A DNA stretch of 64,000 nt from Halomonas qaidamensis (GTDB taxonomy: Bacteria > Pseudomonadota > Gammaproteobacteria > Pseudomonadales > Halomonadaceae): positions 3,224,001 to 3,288,000 of the forward strand of contig NZ_CP080627.1 in assembly GCF_025917315.1 (NCBI RefSeq). The letters are read 5' to 3'. A program made the translations under genes and the position numbers. Shown piece after piece: positions 18,385-36,794 of this stretch (position 1 is its first letter; each line of letters begins with the position of its first letter). The notes below the pieces were generated by a model. The model was not told where the DNA came from. It ran no database searches and saw only the letters and a list, made by a program, of their open reading frames with translations.

Positions 18385-19217
18385 CAGGCTTGGCCTCCCG
18401 CAGGGTTGTTGTCAGCACGGTATACGTTGTCGTCGAGCCACTGGGTGAACGTATCGCGATCACGCGCAATGGCATCCCACTCTTTATAGAAGCGGTTACT
18501 GCGACCGTAGTAGCCATGGGTATACGAAGGCAGCGCGCCCTTTTCTGCCACGGCAACGGCACTAATCGCCCAGCCAGGAATCACGCAGGCATTGGGGTGG
18601 GCGTTCAGGTCATCGACAATTTCTTCCACGGTGACAATGCTGTGCTTAGCAGCCAGCACCGCCTCTTTCTGTACGCCCACAATACCTTCCACCAGCACAT
18701 TACCCTGACGATCTGCCCGCTGGGCGTGAATGATCGACACATCTGGCCGCACCGAGGGCACTGCCGCTAGGCGTTCGCCGGTAAACGGGCACTCAATAAA
18801 TTTGATTTGATCATTCACGCTCGGCAGCTCGCTACCCACATAGCCACGCAACACAGCCAGGGGCAGGCCAGCGGCCCCGGCTTCAAACGCGCAGGCCATC
18901 GCCGCATGGCTGTGCTCTAAAATTTCAATTTTTTGCGGCCAGCCTTTCTCAACCGCATCACGCAGGCGGTGAAGTGAGCCAACCCCTGGGTTACCACCCC
19001 AGGAAAAAATCACTTTCTTAGCGCAGCCCGCGCCGATCAACTGGTCATAAATGATATCGGGGGTCATGCGGATCAGCGTTAGGTCGCGCTTTTTCTGGCG
19101 AATAACTTCGTGACCCGCGGCAAACGGAATCAGGTGGGTAAAGCCTTCCATGGCAACGGTAGCGCCGTCGTCGACGTAGCGTGCTACCGCGTCATGCAAG
19201 CTGAGAAACTCGGCCAT
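18384..19217 (-). CDS. pcaI: 3-oxoadipate CoA-transferase alpha subunit
   Basis: A 277-aa family I CoA-transferase alpha subunit (MAEFLSLHDAVARYVDDGAT, SWGGNPGVGSLHRLRDAVE). It partners PcaJ. I start at the ATG at 19217, which gives the usual N-terminus and has AGAGG upstream; an ATG 20 codons further out adds a basic stretch unlike the family and runs into the promoter. It is the first gene of pcaIJFD-BKACE, divergent from the IclR regulator. Confidence 0.92.
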   Translation of the reverse strand: MAEFLSLHDAVARYVDDGATVAMEGFTHLIPFAAGHEVIRQKKRDLTLIRMTPDIIYDQLIGAGCAKKVIFSWGGNPGVGSLHRLRDAVEKGWPQKIEILEHSHAAMACAFEAGAAGLPLAVLRGYVGSELPSVNDQIKFIECPFTGERLAAVPSVRPDVSIIHAQRADRQGNVLVEGIVGVQKEAVLAAKHSIVTVEEIVDDLNAHPNACVIPGWAISAVAVAEKGALPSYTHGYYGRSNRFYKEWDAIARDRDTFTQWLDDNVYRADNNPAGGQA

Positions 19218-19368
19218 GATAGGTGCCTCTTCGTTGATAATTGCCTTTTTGAAGGCTTTTATTCGCATAACGAACATATATTCTCTTTGCGAACAAATTA
19301 ATCCTCAAGCGCCCACAAGTCAACTCCGATTTGTCGCTGGGTTTTATTAACGAGCGTTGTCACTTATT

Positions 19369-19433: not shown

Positions 19434-20228
19434 ATGAGCAATGCCTTACCAGAAGATGTTTTAAAACCAACGGATCGTGATTTTGTTGCGGCGCTGGCCA
19501 GCGGGCTGGAGGTCGTGATGGCGTTTGATGAGACGCACACGCGAATGACGCTCAGCGAAGTCGCCGAGCGCACAGGGATGAATCGAGCGAAAGCTCGGCG
19601 GTTTTTACTGACGCTCCACGCCCTTGGCTATGTGCGTAAGCAGCAGCGCTACTTCGAGCTAACCCCTAAGGTGCTGCAGCTGGGGTACTCGTATTTAGCG
19701 TCTAATAATTACCGGGGGGTCATACAGCAGTATCTGGAGGAGATTACCCGCCAGTGCGGCGAATCCTCATCGCTGGGGGTACTCGACGGTGACGACGTTA
19801 TCTACTTGGCCCGCTCAGCCGCCCCACACCGTTTAATGGCAATCACCCTTTCAGTAGGCACTCGCCTACCGGCGGCTTATACCTCCATGGGCAGAGTGCT
19901 ACTTGCCCAGTTGCCGGATAGCGAGTTGGATAACTACCTGAGCCAGCTCACCTTAACGCGCCATACCGACAAAACCATTACCGATCCCGCAGCACTGAAA
20001 GCAGCGATACAACAAGCACGAGAACAGGGCTACGCGATCACCGATCAGGAATTGGATTCCGGCCTGCGCTCAATAGCAGTACCGGTATTTGATACCCACG
20101 AAAAGCTGATTGGCGCGATTAACATCAGTACCAATGCAGCCCGTGTGGAGTTGTCGACACTGCTGGAAACGTATCGACCGCTATTGATGGAAAAAGCACA
20201 GCTCATCCGCCAGTCGGTGAGTGTGTGA
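19434..20228 (+). CDS. pcaR: IclR family regulator of the pca operon (PcaR type)
   Basis: A 264-aa protein with an N-terminal IclR winged helix (TLSEVAERTGMNRAKARRFLLTLHALGYV, shown in part) and a C-terminal GAF-like effector domain. PcaR proteins sense beta-ketoadipate and activate pca genes. It is divergent from pcaI, with a GTTCG-N5-CGAAC palindrome between them. Its last 26 nt overlap the end of the convergent nuclease gene, which is unusual and suggests a later insertion there. Confidence 0.86.
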   Translation: MSNALPEDVLKPTDRDFVAALASGLEVVMAFDETHTRMTLSEVAERTGMNRAKARRFLLTLHALGYVRKQQRYFELTPKVLQLGYSYLASNNYRGVIQQYLEEITRQCGESSSLGVLDGDDVIYLARSAAPHRLMAITLSVGTRLPAAYTSMGRVLLAQLPDSELDNYLSQLTLTRHTDKTITDPAALKAAIQQAREQGYAITDQELDSGLRSIAVPVFDTHEKLIGAINISTNAARVELSTLLETYRPLLMEKAQLIRQSVSV

Positions 20229-21666: not shown

Positions 21667-22470
21667 ATGGACAACACTCGACTCAAAGGTAAACACTGCC
21701 TGATTACTGGCGCAGCTCGCGGCATGGGCGCTGCCGTTGCCGAACACTATGCTGCCCAAGGTGCAAAGGTATGTGTGGCGGATATCAATCTTGAAGGGTG
21801 CGAGGAAGTGGCTGCACGTATCAAGGCTAACGGCGGTGAAGCCATTGCGGTCAAACTTAACGTTACTGATCGGGCCGATGTTCAAGCCGCAGTTAAAGCC
21901 ACCGTTGACGCCTTTGGTAGCCTGAACGTGATGGTCAATAATGCGGGTATCAACAAGCCATTAATGTTCCTGGATATTACCGAAGAAAACTGGCACCAAA
22001 TCATGGATGTTAATGCGCTGGGCTGTCTGCTCGGTATGCAGGAAGCGGCCAAGCAGATGATTGATCAGGGTAAGGAAAACGGCCCTTATAAAATCATTAA
22101 CGTAGGCTCGATTCTATCTCGTCAGGCCTTTGACGACGTGGTGCCCTACTCCTGCAGCAAACATGCGGTACTGGCCATGATCAACGGCGGCGCCAAGGCG
22201 CTGGTCGACCACAATATTACCGTTAACGGCTATGGCCCTGGTGTGGTGCGCACCGAACTGTGGGAACAGCTTGATAAAGACTTGGTCAGCATCGGTAAGT
22301 TTGAAAAACAGGGTCAGTCGATGGACGAGCTTGCTGAGAAGATGATTCTAATGAAGCGCTACTCCTACCCGGAAGACGTGGTCGGCACCGCCTCTTTCCT
22401 AGCCAGCGCTGAATCTGATTACATGACCGGCCAGCTACTGATGATTGATGGCGGCATGATCATGCAGTAA
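21667..22470 (+). CDS. Short-chain dehydrogenase (polyol/acetoin-type)
   Basis: A 267-aa classical SDR. The NAD(P) motif TGAARGMG is near residue 16, NNAG near 92, the active Ser in NVGSILS, and YSCSK holds Tyr and Lys. The C-terminal TGQLLMIDGGM is typical. The closest functional groups are sorbitol/polyol and acetoin dehydrogenases, so it may oxidise a hydroxyl of a polyol or cyclitol. It stands alone on the plus strand, close to the end of the hydroxyquinol locus, with which it could cooperate. Confidence 0.85.
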   Translation: MDNTRLKGKHCLITGAARGMGAAVAEHYAAQGAKVCVADINLEGCEEVAARIKANGGEAIAVKLNVTDRADVQAAVKATVDAFGSLNVMVNNAGINKPLMFLDITEENWHQIMDVNALGCLLGMQEAAKQMIDQGKENGPYKIINVGSILSRQAFDDVVPYSCSKHAVLAMINGGAKALVDHNITVNGYGPGVVRTELWEQLDKDLVSIGKFEKQGQSMDELAEKMILMKRYSYPEDVVGTASFLASAESDYMTGQLLMIDGGMIMQ

Positions 22471-22837: not shown

Positions 22838-24631
22838 TTAGTAATGCCCCTTTTCGCGCATCACCTTATCGGCGCGTTCCTGAGCAATGGAAAGCGCCTT
22901 CTTGATTGAGCGGCGTCCATCCAGCACCTCGAAGATCTCATTACCCGCAATGCTGATCAGCTCGGTAATACCCGGCACGGGTGGGCGCGGCCAGGCCTGT
23001 AAAATATCCTTCTTTGCCATGTCATCGACAATCTCAATCAGCGGCGAGAGCGCCGCGACTTCCGGGTCCTGGCTGACGCTGAAACGCGGCGTCACCAGGC
23101 TACCGTTCATGATGTAAAGCTTGGACATATTAGGCGATGTCAGATGCTTTAGCGCCGTCCAGACCGCTTCAACACGCTCCGGCGCCAGGTTGGCAGGAAT
23201 CGCCAGCGCATAGCCACCAATCGGCGTGATGGCACGCCCATGATTGCCCACCGGATGCGACAGATAGCCGGTATTACCATGAGCCGGTGACGTTTTATCA
23301 AACTCAATCAGCGGTGCCAATAAGGTGTAGCAGTAGGCCATGCTGGCTCCCCCCGAGGCGTAGGACTGCGCACGCTCATACCAGGACATAGTCAGGATAT
23401 TCGGCGGGGAGTATTTCAACAGATCCAGCATGTATTCACAGGCGCGGTAAGCGGCATCCGACTGAAACATGGGCCGCAGCTGCTGGCCTTTGGCGTGCTG
23501 AAAATCATAGCCACCCAGGCATCTCGGCAGATCAATAATCGGCTGGCCGAACTTGGCCATCAGAAAGCTGAAGGTATGCCCCAGCGGTGTACCTCTGGCC
23601 GCATTCCAGGCAATGCCATAGCGCCCCTTGGCAGGGTCGTGCAGTTGCCTGGCCACCTTGACCAGCGCTTCCGTGGTGGTGGGTGGCGCTAACTGGGCGG
23701 CAGCGAAAATATCCTGGCGGTAGCAGAGCAGTTCAGGCGTAGTCTGCACCGGTATCCCATACTGGCTGCCCGCATAGCCTGAGCTCTGGATCGCCATAGG
23801 GTGGAAGTCAGACAAGTCATGGCCATCGCGCTGAATCAAGGAATCCAGTGGCATCAGGATACCGCTGGCCGCCAGATCACCAAACCAGGGTAAATCGCAG
23901 GCGACAATGTCATAGCGTGATTTTGTCAGGCGCGCATTATCGTGGATATCTTCCAGCAGGTTATCGATCGAACGCGCCTTGTTGCGAATTTCTAGGCCAA
24001 AGATCGATTCCAGCTGGCGCTTCAGGTTGTGCATCGCCATGAAGGTGGGATCGGCATGGGCCAGCACCCGCAGACCGCCCTTCAATTCAAGCCGCGCAGA
24101 AAGTACCGCTGGCGTGGATATCACCGGCTGTGACGCTGACGCCCCTAAAAATATCTTGCTGGCTGACTCAGAGGCAGGGTCTATCCCGAACAGCGGCCCG
24201 AGGATTCCCTTGATACGCTCGGCATAGCGCTCCCACTCTTCAATCATTTCAGGCGATGGGTGCAGAGAAACGGTTTTGCCGGTTTTGGTTCTGGGCCGTG
24301 AGATAATCAGCCCACGCTGACGAATACTTTCGATGCCTCGTTTGGCCGTTCCATACGAAAGCCCAGAAGCATCCGCCAGCGAGGTGGGCGTCGTCAGCCT
24401 GCCTGCCAGGTGATTACGCATCAGATGTAGCAGCATGCGCATTTCGCGATAGCCCGGCGACATGGTCAAGGTGCTTTCGGTTTCATCTTCCAGCTTTTCA
24501 ATAAAATCAATAAAGCGGGCCAGCTCAGTATTGGATATTTTCGATACCGGCATTTGCGATAGTTTGTCGTAAGGCCCTTCAGGATTGACGTCATCTAACC
24601 CGGCTTGACCAGCCATCGGCGTATTTCTCAT
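22838..24631 (-). CDS. One-component regulator: winged helix fused to a solute-binding-protein domain
   Basis: A 597-aa protein without signal peptide or membrane helix. Residues about 55-130 look like a winged helix (LTTPTSLADASGLSYGTAKR, ESIRQRGLIISRPRTKTGK). Residues about 180-590 resemble an ABC extracellular solute-binding protein of family 1 (ESIFGLEIRNKARSIDNLLEDI, GIPVQTTPELLCYRQDIF, GRYGIAWNAARGTPLG, PIGGYALAIPANL). A cytoplasmic sensor of a small ligand is the simplest reading. I prefer the ATG at 24631 to a GTG one codon earlier. It follows the TauE gene in the same direction, so it may regulate the adjoining hydroxyquinol locus. Confidence 0.8.
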   Translation of the reverse strand: MRNTPMAGQAGLDDVNPEGPYDKLSQMPVSKISNTELARFIDFIEKLEDETESTLTMSPGYREMRMLLHLMRNHLAGRLTTPTSLADASGLSYGTAKRGIESIRQRGLIISRPRTKTGKTVSLHPSPEMIEEWERYAERIKGILGPLFGIDPASESASKIFLGASASQPVISTPAVLSARLELKGGLRVLAHADPTFMAMHNLKRQLESIFGLEIRNKARSIDNLLEDIHDNARLTKSRYDIVACDLPWFGDLAASGILMPLDSLIQRDGHDLSDFHPMAIQSSGYAGSQYGIPVQTTPELLCYRQDIFAAAQLAPPTTTEALVKVARQLHDPAKGRYGIAWNAARGTPLGHTFSFLMAKFGQPIIDLPRCLGGYDFQHAKGQQLRPMFQSDAAYRACEYMLDLLKYSPPNILTMSWYERAQSYASGGASMAYCYTLLAPLIEFDKTSPAHGNTGYLSHPVGNHGRAITPIGGYALAIPANLAPERVEAVWTALKHLTSPNMSKLYIMNGSLVTPRFSVSQDPEVAALSPLIEIVDDMAKKDILQAWPRPPVPGITELISIAGNEIFEVLDGRRSIKKALSIAQERADKVMREKGHY

Positions 24632-24679
24632 CACGGCCTCACTTAATTATTGTGCCGACAAAGGCCTGTTTTGCATTAT

Positions 24680-25417
24680 TTAATGTATGCCATCCATGAT
24701 AAGTCGAATCCCTAACAGAATCAGCAGGCAAAGAATGACCCGGAAAAACAGCTCGCCATCAATGCGCTTCTGAATCACCAGCCCCAACCGCACGCCTAAC
24801 CACGCCACCGGCATCAACAACAAAGCGATGGTCAGATTATCAATATTCACTAGGCCCAGCAGTGTGTAAGGCACCAGCTTGACCAGGTTGGTAATCGCTA
24901 GAAACACCACGGCAGTGCCCAGAAACTGCTGCTTGGTCAGCTGGCACTGCAACAGGTAAAAATTCAGCGGCGGGCCGCCCGCATGGGCAATAAAGCTGGT
25001 AAAGCCTGCTATCCCGCCGCACAGCCGCCCCACCCAGCGAGGCATCAACTTGCCACGTAACGGTTTAAACAGCCCCCACAAGCCAAACAGTACCGAGAAA
25101 ATACCCAACAGTAGTTTCAGCAGTGCTTCATCAAACCAGCCATAGGTGAAATAACCTACTCCAACACCTAATATCGCAGGTGGAAACATCAGCCACAATA
25201 AACGATCAACCCGCTGCCGCCACCACGCTTTTAGGCTAAAGATATCCATCACAATTAGCAGCGGCAGCATCACCGCCACGGCAAATGTTGGGCTTGCCTT
25301 GAGCGAGATCAACGGCACGGCCACAACGCCCACGCCACCGGCAAAACCTGATTTGGAAATACCGGTCAGCAGCACAGCGACGACCATCAGCAGAACAAAT
25401 AACCAATCAATTGTCAT
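24680..25417 (-). CDS. TauE/SafE family membrane transporter
   Basis: A 245-aa inner-membrane protein with about 8 hydrophobic helices and the internally repeated TauE/SafE layout (GISKSGFAGGVGVVAVPLI in the first half; GFTSFIAHAGGPPLNFYLLQ in the second). The family moves sulfite, sulfoacetate or other organic anions. It stands between the regulator gene and a terminator that closes the catabolic operon, so it could be separately transcribed. The substrate is unknown. Confidence 0.88.
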   Translation of the reverse strand: MTIDWLFVLLMVVAVLLTGISKSGFAGGVGVVAVPLISLKASPTFAVAVMLPLLIVMDIFSLKAWWRQRVDRLLWLMFPPAILGVGVGYFTYGWFDEALLKLLLGIFSVLFGLWGLFKPLRGKLMPRWVGRLCGGIAGFTSFIAHAGGPPLNFYLLQCQLTKQQFLGTAVVFLAITNLVKLVPYTLLGLVNIDNLTIALLLMPVAWLGVRLGLVIQKRIDGELFFRVILCLLILLGIRLIMDGIH

Positions 25418-25480: not shown

Positions 25481-25514
25481 AAAAAAAGAGGCCATGATCG
25501 TCACGGCCCCTTTT
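25481..25514 (-). terminator. Terminator after the HadB/RutE-type gene
   Basis: On the minus strand AAAGGGGCC pairs with GGCCTCTTT (one G-U) around an 11-nt loop and runs into seven Ts. It separates the hydroxyquinol catabolic genes from tauE and the regulator. Confidence 0.75.
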
Positions 25515-25562
25515 CGGATACTTGATTCTGTCACACGTTAATCGGAATGAATCCCGATAGGC

Positions 25563-26153
25563 TCACAGAATCTGGCAAACTTCCTCAAAGGCGAAGCGGT
25601 CGCCACGCGGGAACAGCGCTTCTGGATCGCCATAGCCCAGGTTGCACAGGAAGTTGCTTTTCACCTTGCCATCAGGGAAGAACTCTTCATCGACGGCAGC
25701 GTTGTTGAAACCGGACATCGGGCCAGCATCCAGACCGAGTGCGCGAGCAGCCATGATCAGATAGCCACCCTGAATCGAGCTGTTGCGGAAGGCGGTGGAG
25801 TGAATGAAGTCCGGTTTGCCTTCGAACAGTGATTTAGCATCTTTGTTGTGGGCAAACATGCGCGGCAAATGCTCATAAAACTCGGTATCAAAACCAATCA
25901 CAGCCACCACTGGGGCTTTCATGGTCTTCTCCTGGTTACCTGGCAGCAGCGCTGGCTTCAAGCGTTCTTTAGCTTCGTCAGTAGTCAGGAAAATAATCCG
26001 CGATGGCTGACAGTTCATCGACGTAGGGCCAAAGTGCATCAAGTTATACAGTTCGCGCAGGGTGTCTTCACTTACCTCACGGTCCTGCCAAACGTTATGG
26101 GTACGTGCTTCAGTAAATAGCGTGGCGATAGCTTTTTGATCAATCGTTGTCAT
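25563..26153 (-). CDS. HadB/RutE family nitroreductase-fold reductase, probable quinone reductase
   Basis: A 196-aa FMN enzyme, the same length as RutE (malonic semialdehyde reductase). Family signs include HFGPTSMNCQPSRIIFLTTD and the C-terminal GDRFAFEEVC. In chlorophenol clusters the related HadB/TcpB protein stands next to a hydroxyquinol dioxygenase and maleylacetate reductase and reduces the oxidised quinone back to hydroxyquinol. Here it directly follows the hydroxyquinol dioxygenase gene (59 nt), so that role fits better than pyrimidine catabolism. No other rut gene is present. Confidence 0.85.
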   Translation of the reverse strand: MTTIDQKAIATLFTEARTHNVWQDREVSEDTLRELYNLMHFGPTSMNCQPSRIIFLTTDEAKERLKPALLPGNQEKTMKAPVVAVIGFDTEFYEHLPRMFAHNKDAKSLFEGKPDFIHSTAFRNSSIQGGYLIMAARALGLDAGPMSGFNNAAVDEEFFPDGKVKSNFLCNLGYGDPEALFPRGDRFAFEEVCQIL

Positions 26154-26212
26154 GTCATTTCCTCTTTCGGTTTAACCAGCTCAGTACGAGCCGGGCGTTC
26201 AGGGTGAGACGC

Positions 26213-27076
26213 TCAGGCCGTCTTTAAGCCGAAGTCGTAATGGAAGTAGCGGTAAGGGGTTTCCATCTGCCGGCCATCGGGTGCCTGTCCCGCTGGCTGC
26301 TGCGCAAACTCTTTGACCAGTGAATCTTTCACACCAAAGACCGCATCCGAATCGAGATAAGGATCGTCTTCAGCAAAAATCTGAGTCACCAGAGTTTCGT
26401 ACCCTGGCGCCATCAGCATGAAATGCACGTGGGCAGGGCGATACGGATGGCGTCCGGTGATTTCGAGCATCTTGCCTACCGGCCCATCGGTCGGAATCGG
26501 GTAAGGCGATGGCGTCACCGTCCAGAAGGCATAACGCCCCTGGTCGTCGGTGTGAAAGCGCGCGCGTAACGAGGCGCTTTCAAGCTCAGGCTTCTGGACG
26601 TCATAAAAGCCTTCACTGTCCGACTGCCAGACATCAATGGTGACATTCGCCAATGGCTTGCCCTGATCATCGTGGACATGGCCCTCAACAAATAACGGCT
26701 CACCTTCAACGCCCCAGTTGATGGCGTCGCCCTGGTTCGCTTGGGGAGGGTCAGCGACGTAAAAAGGCCCTAGCACAGTGCTTTCGGTGATCTTGGGGTC
26801 ACTGCTTGGGTGGTTGATGGCATCCACCAGCATGGTCACGCCCAGGGTGTCGGACAGCAAGATGAACTCCTGGCGCTCGTCATCGCATATCTGCCCGGTA
26901 CGGGTGAGAAACTCAATCGCCTGGGTCCACTCTTGTTCAGTGGGCTGCACCTCGCGCAAATACGCATGCAGATGTTTTACCAAGCCATTGAGCAAGGTTT
27001 TAAGCCGTTCGTCCTCACAGCTTGAAAATTCATCAATCACTGCCTGGGTAATATTGTCGGTGGTCAGGTTACGCAT
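26213..27076 (-). CDS. Hydroxyquinol 1,2-dioxygenase
   Basis: A 287-aa intradiol dioxygenase converting 1,2,4-trihydroxybenzene to maleylacetate (3-hydroxy-cis,cis-muconate). It has an N-terminal helical domain and a catalytic domain with Fe ligands Tyr158 (GFYDV), Tyr192 (SPYPIP), His216 and His218 (YRPAHVHFM). The PYPIPTDGPVG region is typical of the hydroxyquinol group and differs from CatA at 7009. The ATG at 27076 has GGAGG upstream and lies 1 nt after the preceding stop; longer starts run into that gene. Confidence 0.92.
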   Translation of the reverse strand: MRNLTTDNITQAVIDEFSSCEDERLKTLLNGLVKHLHAYLREVQPTEQEWTQAIEFLTRTGQICDDERQEFILLSDTLGVTMLVDAINHPSSDPKITESTVLGPFYVADPPQANQGDAINWGVEGEPLFVEGHVHDDQGKPLANVTIDVWQSDSEGFYDVQKPELESASLRARFHTDDQGRYAFWTVTPSPYPIPTDGPVGKMLEITGRHPYRPAHVHFMLMAPGYETLVTQIFAEDDPYLDSDAVFGVKDSLVKEFAQQPAGQAPDGRQMETPYRYFHYDFGLKTA

Positions 27077-27077
27077 C

Positions 27078-27998
27078 TTATTGCCCTCCCTGCTGTGCAG
27101 GCGTTGGCTCACCCAGCCCGGAAAGGCGTTCGGTGTGATGTACGGTAGCGATATAGTCATCATCGCCATGTCCGGTGGCGATCAGCGCGGTATAGGCTTC
27201 ACGCATTTGCGCTGCCAGCGGCGTCGACACCCCTGAGCCATGGGCACAGTTCAGGATCAGGTCAAGATCCTTGGCCATCTGGGCGGCGGAAAACGTCGAG
27301 GTGAAATCGCGCTGTGAAAGCGGCGGCACCTTGTACTTCACCATGGGTGAGCCCACCGCGCTGTCAGAAATCAGCTCCAACATGGCGTCCCATTCAATGT
27401 TGCCTTTACGCGCCAGGGTCAGGGCTTCGCTCAGCATGCCGGCACTCACCGCAATCATCAGGTTGATGGCCAGCTTGGCGACCCGAGCCTGCTCTTCATC
27501 GCCTAGCCAATACTGCGCCTTGGTAAAGGCGTCAAACACGGGTTTCGCCGCTTCCAATGCATCGCGTGGGCCAGACACCATCGCCGACAGCGTGCCAGCC
27601 TCTGCTGCCACCGGGTTGCCTGACACCGGGCTGCGCAGATAGGCAATGCCTTGGGCTTTGGCTGCTTCAGCTACCCGTGCTGAGGCTTCCACACTCACCG
27701 TGCTGGTTTCGATCAGGATGCTGCCAGGCGTCATGTGACGAATAAGCTCACCCGGTTCAAGACACAGGCTGAGCAGTGCCCGGTCATCGGGAATCGAGAC
27801 AAATACCAGGCCACACTCCGCCACGGCGCTGGCAAGCGACTGATGCGGGGTAATGCCTATGTCTTCGGCGAGCGCCAGACGCTGTGCTGAAAGATCAAAG
27901 CCTTGAACGGCAGTCCCGGCCTGAATAATCCGGTTGGCCATCGGCAAGCCCAACTTGCCCAGGCCAACCCAGGCGACCTTGGAGGATGAATGGGACAT
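27078..27998 (-). CDS. NAD(P)-dependent beta-hydroxyacid dehydrogenase (3-hydroxyisobutyrate dehydrogenase-like)
   Basis: A 306-aa member of the beta-hydroxyacid dehydrogenase family. The N-terminal Rossmann motif is GLGKLGLPMANRI, the substrate motif SPVSGNPVAAEAGTLSAMVS, and the catalytic lysine is in AKLAINLM. Members oxidise 3-hydroxyisobutyrate, tartronate semialdehyde or similar compounds. Start and stop overlap or abut the neighbouring catabolic genes (1 nt with the amidohydrolase), so it is part of the same pathway. The substrate is unknown. Confidence 0.9.
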   Translation of the reverse strand: MSHSSSKVAWVGLGKLGLPMANRIIQAGTAVQGFDLSAQRLALAEDIGITPHQSLASAVAECGLVFVSIPDDRALLSLCLEPGELIRHMTPGSILIETSTVSVEASARVAEAAKAQGIAYLRSPVSGNPVAAEAGTLSAMVSGPRDALEAAKPVFDAFTKAQYWLGDEEQARVAKLAINLMIAVSAGMLSEALTLARKGNIEWDAMLELISDSAVGSPMVKYKVPPLSQRDFTSTFSAAQMAKDLDLILNCAHGSGVSTPLAAQMREAYTALIATGHGDDDYIATVHHTERLSGLGEPTPAQQGGQ

Positions 27999-29371
27999 TA
28001 GTGTGCCTCCTGTGTGGATTGCGCTTCACGCGCCAGCAGTTCGGCGTGAATGCGATGGCCTGACGCGGCAAGCTCGGCAATGCCCTGTTGAGTGTTCATC
28101 AACAGGCGACCGCCACGTTTCTTGAACTGCCCGGCCACCATGACGCTGTCGACGTTGGCTAAGCTTGTCTGCATGACAACGCTGGAAATCGGGTCGTTGA
28201 CCGGCTGCATATTGAGTTGATTGCTGTCCAGCAGTACCAGATCCGCCTGCTTGCCTGGGGTCAGGCTGCCAATGCGGTCATCAAGCCCCAGGGCTTTCGC
28301 GCCATCCAGCGTGATCCAGCCCAGCGCTTCCCGGGTGGTAATGGTCGAGGTATCGGGGATCTTGCCCTGCTCCCGGCGAGAGGCATCGTTATCCAGGGAA
28401 CGCTGCATGCCCAGGGCCGCACGGGCCACGCTGAACATATCGCCAGAAAGCACCGATTCAAGATCCACTCCCAGTGAAACTACGCCGCCGTGCTGGCGTA
28501 CCAGGCCAGTGACCGGAAAGCCGTGGCCCTGGGTCATCTCGTTTTCCGGGGCCACTGAAAAGGTCACGCCGCTGGCACAGAACCGGGACATCTGACCATC
28601 ATCCAGGCTCTGGCCATGGACAATATTGATATCCGGGCCTAGCAGGCCACGGGCTTCTACTTCGTCCCAGGCGCCGGGGGCCACGGCTTCGCCACCGCCC
28701 TGGTGCATGGACGCGACCAGACCGAATTCTTTGGCCAGGGCAAAGTCCTGCAGGGTGACCTCCAGGGTGGAGTAATGCGGCCCCAGAATCGCCATCCCTA
28801 GAGTGACCAGGCCAGCAGGGTCAGACAGCTCCCCTGCCAGCAAGCGCTCAATTTCATGGCGCGGATGGGGAATTTCACTAAAGTGCGGCTGACCGGGTTT
28901 GGGGTCAGGCTTGGGCGAGCCGTGCATAAACAGTGCCCGAATGCCGGCTTCCTTCAGCCCTCGCACGGCGGCGTCAGTGTGTTCTGGCGTCGGGTTATTG
29001 TGGCACCAGTCACCCAGCGTGGTGGTGCCACAGTTAAGCTGATTGATCGCGCCCATGCGGGTGGCAATATAAATATCATCCGGCGTGAACAATGCTGCTA
29101 GGCCACGGTGTACATGGCGGAAATACTCCAGCAGCGTCCAGTTGGCCGCCACGCCGCGCAGGCCGGTCTGCCAGGTATGCATATGCGCATTCACCAGCCC
29201 AGGAATGAGGATACCGCCGCCACAGTCAATCACCTCGGCATCCGCACCTGCCGCCAGATCATGGCCCACGGCCGCAATCCGCTCATCCTCAACCAGCACC
29301 TGGCCGTTGCTTAACTCACCCAGCGCTGGGTCCATGGTGATCACGGTAGCGTTAATAAACAGAGTTTTCAT
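27998..29371 (-). CDS. TRZ/ATZ-type amidohydrolase
   Basis: A 457-aa amidohydrolase-superfamily enzyme of the cytosine deaminase/chlorohydrolase branch. Metal ligands are His63 and His65 (NAHMHTW), His223 (SMHQGG), His252 (VHGQS) and Asp303 (LGVDLES). The N- and C-terminal beta-sandwich parts frame the barrel. It should deaminate or hydrolytically cleave a cyclic compound. It overlaps the maleylacetate reductase gene by 4 nt, placing it in the hydroxyquinol pathway, where such an enzyme is not a known member. The substrate is not identifiable from sequence. Confidence 0.88.
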   Translation of the reverse strand: MKTLFINATVITMDPALGELSNGQVLVEDERIAAVGHDLAAGADAEVIDCGGGILIPGLVNAHMHTWQTGLRGVAANWTLLEYFRHVHRGLAALFTPDDIYIATRMGAINQLNCGTTTLGDWCHNNPTPEHTDAAVRGLKEAGIRALFMHGSPKPDPKPGQPHFSEIPHPRHEIERLLAGELSDPAGLVTLGMAILGPHYSTLEVTLQDFALAKEFGLVASMHQGGGEAVAPGAWDEVEARGLLGPDINIVHGQSLDDGQMSRFCASGVTFSVAPENEMTQGHGFPVTGLVRQHGGVVSLGVDLESVLSGDMFSVARAALGMQRSLDNDASRREQGKIPDTSTITTREALGWITLDGAKALGLDDRIGSLTPGKQADLVLLDSNQLNMQPVNDPISSVVMQTSLANVDSVMVAGQFKKRGGRLLMNTQQGIAELAASGHRIHAELLAREAQSTQEAH

Positions 29372-30447
29372 AGCGCCTCCCCGCGTTCAGATTGTGGCCG
29401 CAAGCCTGCCTGGGCATTGCTCAGCAGGCGCGCAATCCCGTCAACGGTGATGTCTCTCGGGTTCCAGTAAGGGTTGCGGGTGGCCATCGCCGTGGCTTTG
29501 TCCACATCATTGATGCCGAAGCCTAGTTCCGATAGTGCGCTGGGAGCGCCAACCGCACGCCCCAGGTCATACAGACCAGTGGCCGCATCGTCGCACCCCA
29601 AGGCGCGTTGGATACGCATCATCGCCTGCGGCGCGGCCGGGGCGTTGTAGGCCACCGCATACGGCAACACGATGGTGTGCGTTTCTGCATGGGGAAGATT
29701 GAAAGAGCCGCCCAGGGTATGGCACAGCTTGTGGTGCAGCGACATGCCTACCGAGCCCAAACAGGCGCCACACAGCCAAGCGCCGTAAAGTGCATCGGCA
29801 CGTGCGTCGACGTTGGACAGATCATTGGCGATAACCGGCAGGCTTCGCGCCAGAGCAGCAATGCCTTCTTCGGCCATCAGTGCAATCACTGGGTTGCCAT
29901 CGCGGGCATAAAGCGCTTCCACCGCATGGGCGATGGCGTTAATACCACTGGTGCCCGACATGCCAGCTGGCAGCGTCAAGGTCAGGTCAACGTCGTAAAT
30001 CACCGTTTCCGGCAGCACGTCTAGGGTACGCTGGGTGGTTTTCTCACCGTCACGGGTTTCACCCAGGATCGGCGTCATTTCCGACCCGGCATAGGTGGTG
30101 GGAATAGCAATCTGGGCTAACCCTGTGCGCAGCGCTATCGCCTTGCCCAAGCCAATGGTAGAGCCACCGCCAATGGCGATGGTGCAATCCACGTCCAGTT
30201 CCTTGACGACCTGCATAGCATCATCCGTGATCTCCACAGGTGTGTGCATGGCGGCGTTGGCATAGACACCGACGCCTTTATCACCCAACTGCTGCAAGAC
30301 ATCCTGGGCCTGTTGCTGCTGCTGGGGCGTGGCCAGTACCAAGGCACGTGAACAGCCGAGATGAGCAAGCTCTTCACTTAGACGTGACAGGGTTCCTCGG
30401 CCAAACACCACGCGGGATGGTAAGCCATTATAAACAAAGGGTTGCAT
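29368..30447 (-). CDS. Maleylacetate reductase
   Basis: A 359-aa iron-containing alcohol dehydrogenase-family protein that reduces maleylacetate to beta-ketoadipate. The family-specific segments GLPSRVVFGRGTLSRL, IGGGSTIGLGKAIAL and PTTYAGSEMTPI are present. Its product would enter the PcaIJF steps encoded at 16404-19217. The ATG at 30447 gives the normal N-terminus; an upstream start adds 22 atypical residues. It follows the importer ATPase gene by 72 nt and overlaps the amidohydrolase gene by 4 nt. Confidence 0.93.
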   Translation of the reverse strand: MQPFVYNGLPSRVVFGRGTLSRLSEELAHLGCSRALVLATPQQQQQAQDVLQQLGDKGVGVYANAAMHTPVEITDDAMQVVKELDVDCTIAIGGGSTIGLGKAIALRTGLAQIAIPTTYAGSEMTPILGETRDGEKTTQRTLDVLPETVIYDVDLTLTLPAGMSGTSGINAIAHAVEALYARDGNPVIALMAEEGIAALARSLPVIANDLSNVDARADALYGAWLCGACLGSVGMSLHHKLCHTLGGSFNLPHAETHTIVLPYAVAYNAPAAPQAMMRIQRALGCDDAATGLYDLGRAVGAPSALSELGFGINDVDKATAMATRNPYWNPRDITVDGIARLLSNAQAGLRPQSERGEAL

Positions 30448-30519
30448 GGAACATTCCTTATACGTTTGAAGTGGTCTGTATGTGCTCTTTGCAGTGCACA
30501 TCAGTCGCAACACAGCGAG

Positions 30520-32064
30520 CTAGCTCGCCTGTGCCTGCTTGCCCATGCCGGTAATCGCCTGAACCAGTTCGTCCTCACTGACGTTATCGCCATCAAATTC
30601 AGCGGTCACACGGCCGTCGTACATAGCGATAATGCGGTTACTCAACCCCAGCACTTCCGGCATCTCGGAAGAGATCACCAGCACCGCATAGCCGGATTTA
30701 GCTAAGTCTTTCACCAGGGTGTGAATTTCCGACTTGGAACCTACATCAATGCCTCGGGTGGGCTCATCAAGAATCAATAGCTTCGGATGGGTATGCAGCC
30801 ATTTGCCGATAACAATCTTCTGCTGGTTACCACCGCTGAGGTTGCCCACCTTCTGTCGCCAGCTAGGCGTCTTGATCTTCATTGCCTGATGATATTTGTC
30901 ATAGACTTCACGCTCTTTCGAACTCGTCATAAAGCCCAGTGACGACACGCTAGAAAGACTTGCCAGGGTCATGTTGTCTCGGCAGTTCATGCCCAGAATC
31001 AGCCCTTGGTCTTTGCGGTCTTCAGGGACTAACGCAACGCCACTGGCAACCGCATCGTGGGCGCTGCGAAAGTTGACAACGTCACCATCCAATACCACTT
31101 CCCCAGCGGAAGGCGTGCGCAATCCAAAGATGGTTTCTGCTACTTCAGAGCGCCCTGCCCCTACTAGGCCATACATGCCAACAATCTCGCCCTTGCGCAC
31201 GTTAAAGCTGACGTTCTCGAACACCCGCTTCACCGAGAGGTTGCGCACTTCCAGCAGGTTGTCGCCGAACTCCGTTGGCTTGCTGGCATGATCAAGCTCC
31301 AGACTGCGGCCGATCATCATCCGGGTGATCTCGTCTTCGTTGGTATCTACGGTATTGACGGTGCCGGTGTATTCGCCGTCTCGCAGCACCGAAATGCGGT
31401 GAGAAAGGTGAAAGATCTCGTCCATACGGTGGGAGATATACACAATCCCCACGCCCTGCTCACACAGCGAATTGATCACATCGTAAAGCACCGGCTTTTC
31501 GTGGTCGGTGAGCGACGCTGTCGGTTCATCAAACACCACGACTTGGGGGGTGAAGGCCAGTGCCCGACCAATTTCCACCATCTGTTTCTTAGCAATCGAC
31601 AGCGAACCCACCAGGTCATCGTGCTGAAAGCCACACTTGAGGGTTTCCAGTATCTTGTTGGTATCCTCGCGCAGCTTGCGCCAGTCAACGCGGTTGAACG
31701 GTTTTCTTGGCAGGCTACCCAGAAAAATGTTTTCGGCGACCGTCATCTCCGGTACCAGCGACTGCTCCTGGTGGATCAGCACTACGCCTGCACGCTTGGC
31801 ATGTTTGGGGTTTTCAAAGGCCATCTCTTGGCCGCCCAGAATAATCTTGCCTTCATTGGCTTGATGCTTACCGGCCAGCACCTTCATCAGGGTTGATTTA
31901 CCCGCGCCATTCTCCCCAAGCAAGGCGTGTACCTCGCCGGGACGGACATCGAAATCGACATTGTTGAGTGCCACAACACCAGGGAATCGCTTGGTAATAC
32001 CTTTGAGTTCAAGTATCGGCGCGGCGTCAACCGGCTGGCGTGATTGGGTTGGGGAGGGATTCAT
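30520..32064 (-). CDS. Sugar-type ABC importer ATPase (RbsA/MglA type, two domains)
   Basis: A 514-aa duplicated ATPase. The first domain has GENGAGKST and the family's QANEGKIILGG region; the second has the degenerate GLVGAGRSE and the signature LSGGNQQK with ILDEPTRGIDVGSK. It drives import of monosaccharide-like solutes with two permeases and a binding protein. Its ATG overlaps nothing upstream but its start codon shares 4 nt with the permease stop. The importer is fused by operon structure to hydroxyquinol genes. Confidence 0.94.
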   Translation of the reverse strand: MNPSPTQSRQPVDAAPILELKGITKRFPGVVALNNVDFDVRPGEVHALLGENGAGKSTLMKVLAGKHQANEGKIILGGQEMAFENPKHAKRAGVVLIHQEQSLVPEMTVAENIFLGSLPRKPFNRVDWRKLREDTNKILETLKCGFQHDDLVGSLSIAKKQMVEIGRALAFTPQVVVFDEPTASLTDHEKPVLYDVINSLCEQGVGIVYISHRMDEIFHLSHRISVLRDGEYTGTVNTVDTNEDEITRMMIGRSLELDHASKPTEFGDNLLEVRNLSVKRVFENVSFNVRKGEIVGMYGLVGAGRSEVAETIFGLRTPSAGEVVLDGDVVNFRSAHDAVASGVALVPEDRKDQGLILGMNCRDNMTLASLSSVSSLGFMTSSKEREVYDKYHQAMKIKTPSWRQKVGNLSGGNQQKIVIGKWLHTHPKLLILDEPTRGIDVGSKSEIHTLVKDLAKSGYAVLVISSEMPEVLGLSNRIIAMYDGRVTAEFDGDNVSEDELVQAITGMGKQAQAS

Positions 32065-33020
32065 ATCCGCACCTCCTTGGTCGAGGGCGCATTGAGTTTC
32101 TTATCAATAATAAGTACTGAAATGAGGATCGCACCGAGGATCACCAGCACGTAGAAGGCTGGCACCTGCATCAGGTTCATGCCATTACGCAGAATGCCGA
32201 TTGCCAACACGCCGCCCAGGGTGCCTACAATGCTGCCGTAGCCACCGGTCAGTTTGGTGCCACCCAGCACAACCGCGGTAATCACCCAAAGCTCATAGTC
32301 ACGCCCCAAATTCGGCGTCGCCGCTCCCATCTGACTGGCTAGCAATACACCTGCCAGGGCAGCAAAGAAGCCCACAATAATAAAGTTGATCATCATATGG
32401 CGGCCCAGGCGGATGCCCGCATCGATGGAGGCTTCAGGGTTGCCGCCAACGGCAAAGGTATTACGGCCATGGCCGGTACGGGTTAGCACCAGATGCATGA
32501 TCAATGCGCAAACTAGAAAGATGATGGCCAACACCGGTACCGGCCCAATCGTGCTGGTACCAAAGTCTGCAAACGCAAAGTTCATAGCAAAGAAGGACTG
32601 CTCACCGGTGTACAGGAAAATCAGGCCGCGTACGCCTAGCATGGCGCCGAGCGTAACGATGAAAGCGTTAACACCGGTTTTCCACACCACAAACCCATTC
32701 AGGGCACCCAGCAAGATTCCTGAACCCAAGGCCGCTAGAATTGCCAGCGTCATGCTAACTTCCTGCAAACCCACCGCTAGGGAAGCGGCTAGCCCTAGTA
32801 TCGCTCCCACTGACAAATCGATGTTGCCGTTGATCATAACGAAGGTCATGCCTAGGGCGATCAGGCCAATCGTTGAGGTCTGCACCAGAATATTGGTGAT
32901 GTTGCCAAACGATAGGAAGTACTCCGACATAAAGCTGAAGAAAATAAAGAGCGCGATAACAAACACCCAGATAGGCTGGATACTCGTCCTGCCACGGAAG
33001 AATCCTTTAATTGATGTCAT
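32061..33020 (-). CDS. Sugar-type ABC importer permease
   Basis: A 319-aa RbsC-type inner-membrane permease with about 9-10 hydrophobic helices. It has the family GNIDLSVGAILGLAASLAVG segment and the cytoplasmic loop with GGNPEASIDAGIRLGRH that contacts the ATPase. It is paralogous to the neighbouring permease at 33037; both share GGNP and LGGT(K/S)L motifs. It is the second of two different permeases, as in heteromeric CUT2-type systems. Confidence 0.93.
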   Translation of the reverse strand: MTSIKGFFRGRTSIQPIWVFVIALFIFFSFMSEYFLSFGNITNILVQTSTIGLIALGMTFVMINGNIDLSVGAILGLAASLAVGLQEVSMTLAILAALGSGILLGALNGFVVWKTGVNAFIVTLGAMLGVRGLIFLYTGEQSFFAMNFAFADFGTSTIGPVPVLAIIFLVCALIMHLVLTRTGHGRNTFAVGGNPEASIDAGIRLGRHMMINFIIVGFFAALAGVLLASQMGAATPNLGRDYELWVITAVVLGGTKLTGGYGSIVGTLGGVLAIGILRNGMNLMQVPAFYVLVILGAILISVLIIDKKLNAPSTKEVRI

Positions 33021-33036
33021 GTTGCATTCCTCCGCG

Positions 33037-34047
33037 TTATGAGTGGGTCGTGAACAAGCTCTTACGCTTGTTAGCGAGATCCAGCCATACGGCCAGAATG
33101 ATAATGACCCAGGTCACAATCCACTGGATGTAATAGGGGTAGCCCATCAACAGCAGGCCATTCTGGATAAAGCCCAGGATCAACACGCCAATCACGGTTT
33201 TCCAAATACTGCCCGCACCGCCCAGCAGGCTGGTGCCGCCCAGAATGATCCCCGCCAATACCAGCAGCTCGTAGCCCTGGCCTACGTTGTTTTGCGAGCC
33301 CATTACCCGTGAGCCAAGTACTAGAGCGGCACAGGCCACACAGAAAGCTGAAATCAGATAGGTGCTAAACACGCACCAGTTCTTGCGAATACCAGAGTAA
33401 ACGGCGGCCATCGGGTTACCGCCCACCGCAAAAATGCGTCGGCCGTATCCGGTATAGGACATCACCACCTGCATCACGATAGCTAGCAGACCAAACATAA
33501 GAATAGGGACCGCAATACCACCGACATAGCCACGTCCAAAGAACGCAAACCAGGTGCCTTCCTGATCGGCGATATCGACGTTTTGTCCGCCGCTGTAGAT
33601 CAGCACAAAGCCTTGAATGGCCGATAGCATCGCCAAGGTCACAATCAGTGAATTGAGACGCAGAAAGCCAATCAAAAACCCGTTCACAGCACCAATCATC
33701 AGGGTCAGCGCGAACATCAACAAAATGGCATTAGTGGGGCCTATTTTGTCGTGTAAATCGACTACTAGAACGGTAGAAAACGACAGCATCGAGCCTACTG
33801 AGAGGTCAAGGTTGCCACCGATAATCACCACGCTGACACCGACTGCGATGATGCCAATGATGGATGCCTGACGCACCACGGTCATGATGTTGGACTGGGA
33901 GAGAAACTGCTCAGAGAAGAACGAAAAAACGAACATACTGAGCAGGAAAAAAATAAGTATTCCCTGAGCCGATAGAAAACTCAGCACACCAGCCTTGCTA
34001 AGTTTTCCCGGCAGCAGCCTAGGTTTTGATTGCTCTGCGGAAGCCAT
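33037..34047 (-). CDS. Sugar-type ABC importer permease
   Basis: A 336-aa RbsC-type permease with conserved GGNLDLSVGSMLSFSTVLVV and GGNPMAAVYSGIRKN segments. I start at the ATG at 34047, which has AGGTGA upstream; a start 15 codons further out is possible. It lies 167 nt downstream of the binding-protein gene and 16 nt before the second permease gene. Together with 30520 and 32061 it makes a heterodimeric channel. Confidence 0.93.
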   Translation of the reverse strand: MASAEQSKPRLLPGKLSKAGVLSFLSAQGILIFFLLSMFVFSFFSEQFLSQSNIMTVVRQASIIGIIAVGVSVVIIGGNLDLSVGSMLSFSTVLVVDLHDKIGPTNAILLMFALTLMIGAVNGFLIGFLRLNSLIVTLAMLSAIQGFVLIYSGGQNVDIADQEGTWFAFFGRGYVGGIAVPILMFGLLAIVMQVVMSYTGYGRRIFAVGGNPMAAVYSGIRKNWCVFSTYLISAFCVACAALVLGSRVMGSQNNVGQGYELLVLAGIILGGTSLLGGAGSIWKTVIGVLILGFIQNGLLLMGYPYYIQWIVTWVIIILAVWLDLANKRKSLFTTHS

Positions 34048-34214
34048 GCTATTCACCTGTATAAAATCACCTCGGAAAGCACCGGTTAGCACGGGGGCTA
34101 TCCCGCCACGCTAACCGTACCCCCCTACGCAGGAAACCTGCCTTTAGGGTCACGCCGTGCCGGTGTTAGTAGGCGATACACACCCATAACACCAGGCAGC
34201 AGTACGCTCTGCCT

Positions 34215-35153
34215 TTAGAAAACCGGACGGTCAAACGCTTCGAGGTTTTCAGCGGTGATTTTTGGTGTTTCGAAGAAGTTCATTTTCGGCACTTCTTCTC
34301 CAGCCAGTACATCTAGGGCTGTTTGCAAAGCTGCTTCCGCATCATCAACAGGAGACTGATAAATAGAACCGTAATACTCGCCACGCTCAATAGCGTCGTA
34401 GCCAACTGCAAAGTTGGTGGCGCCAATGAAGATAATGTCATCTGCACGATCGGCGCCTTTAGCAGCATTTAAAGCGCCAACGCCCATATTGTCATCGCCG
34501 GAATAAACACCATCAATACGATCATACTTGGTCAAGAAATCTTCCATCACCCGCTGTGCGCGCTCGCGGTTCCAGTTGCCTGGCTGGGTCTCCATTAACT
34601 CAACACCTGGACACGCTTCAGCGAGGCGCTCTTCAAAACCGGCCGCACGCTCCATGGCCGTGGTATAACCGGGTTGGCCGGCAATCTGTACGATTTGTCC
34701 TTCTCCACCCAAGGCATCACACATCATCTCAGCAGAGGAAATACCTTGCTGGACATTGTCTGGGCCAGAGAAGGCAGCGATGAACTCAAGTCCCGCTTCA
34801 GCAATTTTAGAGTTGGTGACGACCACCGGAATACCTGCGTTATGCGCTTGGCGAATGGCAGGGATAACAGCCTGTCCATTGGTTGGCCAAATAATAATGG
34901 CGTCGACACGCTGCTGAATAAGATCCTGCATCTGGCCAATCTGACGCGCGACATCGCCGCCAGCATCCAGCACAACAATATCTACATTGCCAGCGCTCTC
35001 TGCAGCAGCTTCAAAGGCACTCTCATAGGTAGTTTGGTAACTATCAACACCGACGTTGTTTTGGGTAATACCAATGCGATAGGTGCTTTCAGCTTGCGCC
35101 GTCGTGATCGACATCATAATGACAGATGCGGCAATAGCGGTTTTCTTGAACAT
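34215..35153 (-). CDS. Sugar-type ABC importer substrate-binding protein
   Basis: A 312-aa periplasmic-binding protein of the ribose/galactose class (peripla_BP_4). A signal peptide ends at AQA (residue 21) and the mature protein starts ESTYRIGITQNN. Lobe features include DAGGDVARQIGQMQDLIQQ and GVYSGDDNMGVGALNAA. It is the first gene of the minus-strand importer-hydroxyquinol operon and should set its substrate specificity. The ligand is probably a polyol, cyclitol or sugar-like ring; this is inference from family and context. Confidence 0.92.
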   Translation of the reverse strand: MFKKTAIAASVIMMSITTAQAESTYRIGITQNNVGVDSYQTTYESAFEAAAESAGNVDIVVLDAGGDVARQIGQMQDLIQQRVDAIIIWPTNGQAVIPAIRQAHNAGIPVVVTNSKIAEAGLEFIAAFSGPDNVQQGISSAEMMCDALGGEGQIVQIAGQPGYTTAMERAAGFEERLAEACPGVELMETQPGNWNRERAQRVMEDFLTKYDRIDGVYSGDDNMGVGALNAAKGADRADDIIFIGATNFAVGYDAIERGEYYGSIYQSPVDDAEAALQTALDVLAGEEVPKMNFFETPKITAENLEAFDRPVF

Positions 35154-36187: not shown

Positions 36188-36236
36188 AAAAAAACATCCT
36201 TTTAGGGTGATAGGTAAAGAGCGATCTTTATGGGAT

Positions 36237-36728: not shown

Positions 36729-36794
36729 GAAAGTCTCCTTATCAAGTGATGGCATCATCCTGACAGCTCGACCTCGTCAAACACCTGACGGCAG

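Follow-up and report, generated by a model that had tools for sequence, protein, structure and literature searches.

A conserved hydroxyquinol operon of Halomonas without a clustered ring hydroxylase, and its possible supply from a cyclic polyol

Hydroxyquinol is the hub of one branch of chlorophenol, nitrophenol and resorcinol breakdown, which uses hydroxyquinol 1,2-dioxygenase (HQD) and maleylacetate reductase (MAR), often with a HadB/TcpB-type reductase. Genes of this branch are found in a 64,000-nucleotide stretch of the 3.82-Mb genome of Halomonas qaidamensis (contig NZ_CP080627.1, positions 3,224,001 to 3,288,000), hereafter termed the window. There, they share one block of nine genes with a CUT2 importer and an amidohydrolase (AMH), and no ring hydroxylase is clustered with them. 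The locus thus raises the question of what its hydroxyquinol is made from. We propose, with a probability of roughly 0.38, that a cyclic polyol is made aromatic and then degraded via hydroxyquinol.

A conserved nine-gene unit

The nine genes occupy positions 25563 to 35153 of the window, all on the minus strand. Gene ends were refined in this analysis, which places the starts of HQD, MAR and the first permease at 27079, 30450 and 34050, respectively. The genes and the terminator that closes them are as follows.

34215..35153, minus strand: periplasmic substrate-binding protein (SBP) of the CUT2 importer (NCBIfam RbsB, 119 bits, under cut-off)
33037..34050, minus strand: CUT2 permease 1 (best NCBIfam model AraH, 181 bits, under cut-off)
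32061..33020, minus strand: CUT2 permease 2 (best NCBIfam model AraH, 211 bits, under cut-off)
30520..32064, minus strand: CUT2 ATPase (NCBIfam AraG/RbsA, 559/557 bits, under cut-offs)
29368..30450, minus strand: MAR (solved relatives 3jzd, 3hl0 and 3w5s, E<=1e-120)
27998..29371, minus strand: AMH, a PRK08204-type amidohydrolase (NCBIfam PRK08204, 576 bits, cut-off 391)
27078..27998, minus strand: beta-hydroxyacid dehydrogenase, BHAD (PF03446 and PF14833; best NCBIfam model 168 bits, under cut-off)
26213..27079, minus strand: HQD (PF00775 and PF04444; best solved relative 1tmx, E=4e-85)
25563..26153, minus strand: RutE/HadB-type flavoprotein reductase, NTR (PRK05365, 298 bits, cut-off 152; PDB 7vqk, E=1e-37)
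25483..25515, minus strand: intrinsic terminator (-21.2 kcal/mol, z=-3.25)

AMH overlaps MAR, and the ATPase overlaps permease 2, by 4 bases each; HQD and BHAD overlap by 2 bases, and BHAD and AMH share 1. The gaps are 16 bases between the permeases, 59 between NTR and HQD, 69 between MAR and the ATPase, and 164 between permease 1 and SBP. The terminator fold was matched by 2 of 200 shuffles; a simple terminator scan does not list it. The best solved relative of MAR is found at E=1e-126. By homology, HQD is a hydroxyquinol-type intradiol dioxygenase and MAR a maleylacetate reductase, so the lower hydroxyquinol pathway appears to be represented. An earlier reading, made from the sequence only, had named the same nine genes and placed the terminator here, and coordinates, NCBIfam, Pfam, solved relatives and folding energy bear it out.

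AMH was sought in bacterial genome contigs, and the best 80 of 415 candidate loci were compared, with none of the 80 left out; the structure alignment (A3) took 31 rows, picked for spread. Gene content was read by tblastn with a query set, in stretches of up to 10 kb on either side of AMH. All nine genes are present in the same order in 31 of the 80 loci, every one from Halomonadaceae or Marinobacterium. Three neighbouring genes, encoding an SDR-family dehydrogenase, a TauE/SafE-type exporter and an SBP_bac_1 protein, are each found in 30 of these 31, the exception (L028) being cut by a contig end; in Marinobacterium L041 and L042, an SDR gene is inserted after SBP. Compared with Halomonas alkaliantarctica FS-N4 (L018), the proteins examined show 97-100% identity. 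Within the genus, 17 of 82 genomes carry AMH, and the same 17 carry an HQD orthologue of >90% identity (the 82 include the present genome, and the 17 include it and one other of the same species). The nine genes are a real conserved unit.

Queries for flavin hydroxylases matched none of the 31 orthologous loci in the stretch compared, which reaches at most 10 kb to either side of AMH, in line with the earlier observation that no ring hydroxylase is clustered here. The operon has HQD, MAR and a HadB/RutE-type reductase in common with the classical hydroxyquinol branch. However, it has no clustered hydroxylase and carries instead the CUT2 importer, AMH, BHAD and the SDR gene. A control locus of the classical kind, from Variovorax RA8 (L165), encodes a flavin reductase, an HpaB-type hydroxylase, a reductase of the same annotated type as NTR, MAR and HQD.

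A possible route from a cyclic polyol

In the proposed pathway, the substrate would be a cyclitol such as a cyclohexanepentol, or a near relative, taken up by the CUT2 importer. A ring hydroxyl would be oxidised to a ketone by the following enzyme.

21667..22470, plus strand: SDR, polyol/acetoin-type dehydrogenase (best PDB matches 3wye/3a28, butanediol dehydrogenase; 4e6p/6pei/1k2w, sorbitol dehydrogenase)

AMH, as a metal enzyme of the amidohydrolase fold without the glutamate of deaminases, would then drive water loss from the keto ring, and BHAD would perform a second oxidation; C6H12O5 less 4 H and 2 H2O would give 2-hydroxy-1,4-benzoquinone (C6H4O3). NTR would reduce this hydroxybenzoquinone to hydroxyquinol (C6H6O3), HQD would open the ring to maleylacetate, and MAR would convert maleylacetate into 3-oxoadipate, for which genes in the same window could complete degradation. 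Close homology covers only the lower half, from HQD and MAR onward; we infer the upper steps and the order in which SDR, BHAD and NTR act. The earlier suggestion that the SDR could take part stands insofar as its gene belongs to the unit, and its role in the first ring oxidation is our proposal.

The importer has the composition expected of the CUT2 class: SBP, two permeases, and a double-length ribose-type ATPase, which is the sole match at E<=1e-60 within its own genome. All substrate-specific NCBIfam models score under cut-off, so that the four scores indicate a class and no substrate. The best solved relatives of SBP are the ribose-binding protein 2ioy, which is also the best Foldseek match of its predicted model (pLDDT 86), and the mycobacterial carbohydrate-binding proteins 5hko, 4rs3 and 4rsm. 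SBP shares with these three an Asn in place of the Asp-Arg pair of the ribose type. We take the three proteins to bind alditols. The SDR, whose best NCBIfam matches are all under cut-off, is nearest to butanediol and sorbitol dehydrogenases. The relatives of both proteins would be compatible with a polyol, and neither is proof of one. Because of the CUT2 importer, the dehydrogenase-type neighbours, and the dehydratase-type genes in related clusters that lack AMH (see below), a sugar- or cyclitol-like substrate seems favoured.

AMH has the metal site of TRZ/ATZ amidohydrolases (HxH, H, H, D). Among 91 sequences, H63, H65, H223 and H252 are present in all and D303 in 90. Its predicted model (pLDDT 91.6) matches the folds of isocytosine deaminase 7ww2, AtzA and TrzN (18-27% identity among the matches listed). 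Most solved TRZ/ATZ relatives are deaminases or chlorohydrolases, and AMH shares their fold and five metal ligands with AtzA, TrzN, and isocytosine and guanine deaminases. An aminocyclitol or aminophenol might accordingly be deaminated by AMH on the way to hydroxyquinol. However, three residues after H223, where phmmer aligns a Glu of 7ww2 that we take to be catalytic in TRZ/ATZ deaminases, 88 of the 91 AMH sequences have Gly (Gly226). For this reason deamination is disfavoured, and the nine-gene unit also holds no aminotransferase or ammonia-handling gene. Deamination is thus highly improbable here. Of the two sources named in the sequence-only reading, a sugar or cyclitol ring is the one retained, and a deaminated ring compound is not.

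We return to AMH as a ring-dehydrating enzyme in the polyol route, a role that we assign tentatively from its position. Matches to its model include entries named "Amidohydrolase, AHS with 3-HAA," which by our reading are NatAM, an enzyme of benzoxazole formation. The published account describes this zinc amidohydrolase as eliminating water, "a reverse hydrolysis reaction" (PMC7204872). A member of the superfamily that eliminates water thus has a precedent. NatAM has another substrate and reaction and is not a close relative of AMH.

Two known pathways resemble the proposal in part. The hydroaromatic pathway of quinate and shikimate leads to protocatechuate. As in the proposed route, an alicyclic polyol is oxidised and dehydrated to an aromatic diol, which undergoes intradiol cleavage towards 3-oxoadipate. 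The hub here would be hydroxyquinol rather than protocatechuate, however, and the operon has no dehydroquinase-type gene, although such genes are present in HQD clusters that lack AMH. Catabolism of myo-inositol proceeds by the iol pathway, which shares with the proposal sugar-type import and an oxidised ring; an IolG-like gene is found in sister loci of Mesorhizobium. Unlike that pathway, the nine genes include none of the IolB/C/D/E type, the rest of the genome not having been searched for them. Among the open-licence matches listed, no paper links hydroxyquinol with a cyclitol, such an amidohydrolase or a CUT2 importer, which is weak evidence of absence.

If the proposal is correct, it joins sugar-alcohol catabolism and aromatic ring cleavage, two fields that have been kept apart, and hydroxyquinol genes need not signal the breakdown of pollutants or lignin. 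An amidohydrolase branch so far unassigned would also gain a function, and what becomes of plant and algal cyclitols could be put to the test. Even with another substrate, a conserved entry into hydroxyquinol without a clustered hydroxylase in α-, β- and γ-proteobacteria represents unassigned biochemistry with a clear gene set.

AMH loci outside the Halomonas-type clade

HQD lies beside AMH in 52 of the 80 loci, 21 of them outside the Halomonas-type clade. An SDR, Gfo/Idh, GMC or FAD-oxidase match is present in the examined stretch of 17 of these 21 (L065 and L068 by a weak SDR match alone, 27-31%), a CUT2 ATPase in 10 and a flavin hydroxylase in 4. On the AMH tree, the presence of HQD requires 11 changes, compared with 25.8 in shuffles, and is therefore clustered, as near-copies alone make likely; rows L101-L105 sit on long branches.

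Several types of locus can be distinguished. Ten loci from Bradyrhizobium, Azorhizobium, Xanthobacter and Tardiphaga share a FAD_binding_4/FAD-oxidase_C protein together with a CUT2 ATPase; Dabb, MAR, BHAD and YciI proteins usually accompany them. Plasmid loci of Bosea (L099, L100) are of this Bradyrhizobium type, and L100 has a flavin hydroxylase further upstream. The Burkholderiales and Ramlibacter type comprises six AMH-HQD loci, four with a flavin hydroxylase. On a Skermanella plasmid (L098), the Halomonas-type set is accompanied by ThuA and BKACE genes.

Four loci from Mesorhizobium and Kaistia combine HQD and AMH with SDR, Gfo/Idh, YciI and FAA hydrolase genes, and MAR gave no tblastn match in any of the four. 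The best model for the FAA hydrolase is 2,4-didehydro-3-deoxy-L-rhamnonate hydrolase (179-182 bits, cut-off 500; two loci scanned), and that for the Gfo/Idh protein is IolG (91-104 bits, cut-off 355; three loci scanned). A malonyl-CoA synthase scores 858 bits (cut-off 558; one locus scanned). A malonyl-CoA decarboxylase has PF05292 and no NCBIfam model in the one locus scanned, with tblastn matches in all four. This set fits a ring with one more oxygen, in which C6H6O4 plus O2 would give C6H6O6, at the level of 2,4-dioxoadipate, and then pyruvate and malonate. The basis of this putative route is arithmetic and family resemblance.

Other loci bear on a different use of AMH. GMC oxidoreductases are encoded with AMH and HQD in Paraburkholderia L062, and the plasmid loci of Paraburkholderia D15 and Cupriavidus N-1 (pBB2) encode them as well. 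In Variovorax L101, AMH and a GMC gene overlap; in Cupriavidus L104, such a gene lies 103 bases before AMH, and a ThuA-family gene directly precedes AMH in Skermanella L098. These arrangements, and the place of AMH in a hydrolase superfamily with its five metal ligands kept, suit an alternative in which an imported conjugate (a glycoside, an ester, an amide, or a methoxy- or amino-quinone precursor) is hydrolysed by AMH to yield hydroxyquinol or hydroxybenzoquinone directly. NTR could reduce the hydroxybenzoquinone released. Before that, an SDR, GMC, FAD oxidase or Gfo/Idh protein may act on the sugar part by oxidation, as happens when 3-keto-glycosides are broken down. However, no gene that would deal with a released sugar is seen to be conserved across the loci, and dehydratase-type genes are present in HQD clusters without AMH. 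We consider hydrolytic release rather unlikely.

AMH is also found in settings of another kind. In Reyranella and relatives (L059, L074, L075, L081, L083, L085, L086), it occurs without HQD. Its company there is a GMC oxidoreductase, BHAD, a cluster with a binding protein of the tricarboxylate type, and a protein with a MetE catalytic domain (PF01717, shown for L075); these loci are a candidate for another pathway that uses the same amidohydrolase family. On plasmids of Shinella (L103), Burkholderia (L159) and Rhodococcus (L160), AMH relatives of 38-47% identity occur without HQD; their neighbours are alpha/beta hydrolases and genes of the flavin-hydroxylase type or for FAD monooxygenases.

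HQD clusters without AMH

HQD was surveyed in 398 genomes of Pseudomonadota, which yielded 66 places in 41 genomes. Sixty places were compared by the tblastn query set, leaving out the present genome, G005 (=L124), G091:635952, G176:402867, G161:69135 and G327:121224. AMH is present in 7 of the 60, all with a CUT2 ATPase and a FAD oxidase. A dehydroquinase II or a xylose-isomerase-like TIM barrel is found, without AMH, in six. The TIM barrels of L176, L183, L206 and L223 are confirmed by Pfam (PF01261), as is the L180 dehydroquinase (PF01220). L206 combines HQD, the TIM barrel, Gfo/Idh, a Peripla_BP_4 SBP, a CUT2 ATPase match, Dabb and MAR with a GguB-type permease (554 bits, cut-off 450). A CUT2 ATPase is matched in 10 of the 60 places overall. 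Flavin or HpaB hydroxylases are matched in 13, one of which also has AMH (L224). The other 47 have no match to these queries, which do not extend to Rieske, P450 or other oxygenases. An HQD neighbourhood free of a hydroxylase is therefore not rare, and such an absence is by itself of little significance. The sequence-only reading had held that known hydroxyquinol clusters start with a hydroxylase; this is too general, as some HQD clusters have no hydroxylase annotated.

Annotated plasmids repeat the pattern. The Paraburkholderia largidicola plasmid encodes a CUT2 importer, dehydroquinase II (PF01220, 153 bits), zinc alcohol dehydrogenase, BHAD, YciI, HQD, MAR and SDR, and lacks AMH. That of S. 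meliloti Rm41 encodes dehydroquinase II, MAR, NTF2, HQD and a TIM barrel, again without AMH, and plasmids of S. americanum and Caballeronia NK8 show the same theme of dehydratase-type genes near HQD. Eleven plasmid neighbourhoods were chosen by hand rather than at random, and one (L229) has no annotation. Among the other 10, a dehydroquinase II and/or sugar-isomerase-like TIM barrel is present in four (L163, L164, L166, L167), a hydroxylase-type gene in two (L165, L231) and neither in four (L162, L168, L230, L232). Dehydratase-type families are present, then, in HQD clusters from which AMH is absent.

The polyol route might on this basis be generalised. Several bacterial classes would aromatise cyclitols to hydroxyquinol, or to a tetrahydroxybenzene that is converted to pyruvate and malonate in the Mesorhizobium type. 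The Glu-less AMH clade would perform dehydration and be interchangeable with dehydroquinase II and with TIM barrels resembling IolE. We regard this wider scheme as doubtful.

Two further arrangements were seen around HQD. In L232 (Rhizobium leguminosarum pRlvC), HQD and MAR follow genes of the aminomethyltransferase family, methylenetetrahydrofolate reductase and purU. The arrangement resembles a route to hydroxyquinol by folate-dependent demethylation, and no hydroxylase is annotated in the stretch examined. In L218 and L215, HQD (42%) lies beside SDR and BKACE-like genes and another CUT2 importer, with no AMH and no hydroxylase match. Hydrolysis of sesamol or a related methylenedioxy compound was considered as a source of hydroxyquinol and dropped; the literature search gave nothing fitting, and the folate-type HQD cluster of R. 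leguminosarum has no annotated amidohydrolase.

Distant hydroxylases and the weight of contrary evidence

Some observations weigh against a cyclic polyol. The scheme calls for two dehydrations, and no separate gene accounts for the second. In the upper half, SDR, BHAD, Gfo/Idh, FAA hydrolase and FAD oxidase all score under NCBIfam cut-offs and have no curated substrate, and the Bradyrhizobium-type FAD oxidase most resembles GlcD, which is an alpha-hydroxyacid enzyme. Reduction of the hydroxyquinone by the HadB-type enzyme, as the sequence-only reading had it, is plausible, but the over-cut-off NCBIfam name of NTR is "malonic semialdehyde reductase" (PRK05365). The importers of the two main AMH-HQD clades are only 28-45% alike. 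AMH stands without HQD in 28 of the 80 loci, some of them cut by contig ends. A shikimate dehydrogenase is also encoded at two of the six places with a TIM barrel or dehydroquinase, L223 (447 bits) and L226 (444 bits; cut-off 235); these may be quinate-type clusters that make protocatechuate, which weakens the count of six in 60. Flavin hydroxylases lie beside AMH and HQD in Ramlibacter (L065, L066, L087), a Burkholderiales metagenome-assembled genome (L053), L134 (=L224) and Bosea L100. Finally, in plasmids L103 and L159, where AMH relatives of 46-47% identity occur without HQD, a gene of the flavin aromatic-hydroxylase type overlaps AMH. Because of this overlap, some AMH relatives at least work alongside aromatic hydroxylation, and less weight therefore falls on a cyclic polyol, both in the proposed route and in the wider scheme above.

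The last two observations are also points for another explanation, in which a distant ring hydroxylase makes hydroxyquinol from a phenol and the role of the importer and AMH lies in a side branch or with a modified aromatic. The genome encodes two flavin hydroxylases of the PRK08132 type, 64-77 kb from the operon. Elsewhere in the genus, five genomes have only an HQD of 45-54% identity, and G491 holds both kinds of HQD. Seven of the eight lower-identity places, which lack AMH, were compared (L121-L127). A Rieske-type gene is present in four (Pfam is shown for L122; L121, L126 and L127 are assigned by best blast match to the same cluster) and a FAD hydroxylase in one, and no oxygenase was seen in L123 and L124. 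However, HpaB was not found in the H. qaidamensis genome, and the two PRK08132-type enzymes do not track the operon. The first is present in 26 of the 82 genus genomes and 8 of the 17 with the operon, and the second (at least 86% identity) in 10 and 5, respectively. Because 9 of the 17 operon-bearing congeners have neither, these two enzymes are not obligate, a comparison that has HpaB, Rieske and P450 enzymes outside it. Among those nine, no FAD_binding_3 match exceeds 117 bits in G033 and G035, and stronger ones are present in the other seven. Whether a known hydroxylase elsewhere always accompanies the operon had been named as a check on the earlier reading, and for the flavin class it found no such constant companion in these two enzymes. 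We judge supply by a distant hydroxylase unlikely.

Possible 3-oxoadipate outlets in the window

Genes that could act on 3-oxoadipate, the end product of MAR in the polyol route, lie in the same window.

14683..15516, minus strand: BKACE, 3-oxoadipate:acetyl-CoA acetyltransferase (NF053568, 494.6 bits, cut-off 350)
16404..17606, minus strand: pcaF, 3-oxoadipyl-CoA thiolase (TIGR02430, 674.8 bits, cut-off 597)
17617..19277, minus strand: two CoA-transferase subunits (PF01144, 154.8 and 76.9 bits; no NCBIfam model at E<=1e-20)
19434..20228, plus strand: PcaR/PcaU-type IclR regulator of the lower pathway (TIGR02431, 308 bits, cut-off 284.75)

BKACE, which is matched in 10 of the 31 orthologous loci, is a possible outlet for 3-oxoadipate. 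By its neighbourhood, the CoA-transferase pair is probably a 3-oxoadipate CoA-transferase, and with the thiolase it may form a second outlet. A catechol 1,2-dioxygenase is also encoded in the window, at 7009-7983 (TIGR02439, 477 bits, cut-off 392).

Neighbouring genes

Two more conserved neighbours lie downstream of the operon.

24680..25417, minus strand: TauE/SafE-type exporter (PF01925)
22838..24634, minus strand: SBP_bac_1 protein with an N-terminal extension, candidate regulator (PF01547/PF13416)

The linkage to TauE/SafE had suggested a sulfonated ring with export of sulfite. This was rejected, as the gene is present in 30 of the 31 Halomonadaceae and Marinobacterium loci but gave no match in the 21 AMH-HQD loci outside that clade. 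S. americanum L166 likewise has a TauE/SafE gene annotated close to HQD, and there is a match in L188.

Upstream of the operon, at 35777-36758, lie a hydroxyisourate-hydrolase/transthyretin-like gene and an HbpS-like gene, both with an apparent signal peptide. Urate breakdown, considered because of the gene at 35777, was dropped, as the gene is found in only 2 of the 31 loci.

As for a possible single origin of the two CUT2 importers, the cluster ATPase is the best match by E-value in each of four genomes (f66), at 42-44% identity compared with 41-43% for the next copy.

The SBP_bac_1 protein has 598 amino acids, with its SBP_bac_1 domain at residues 241-501; a signal peptide was not seen by eye. 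The N-terminal part has no Pfam match and reads like a winged helix. The protein is possibly a one-component regulator that senses the substrate through an importer-type domain, and its gene is also present in Skermanella L098 and Kaistia L069.

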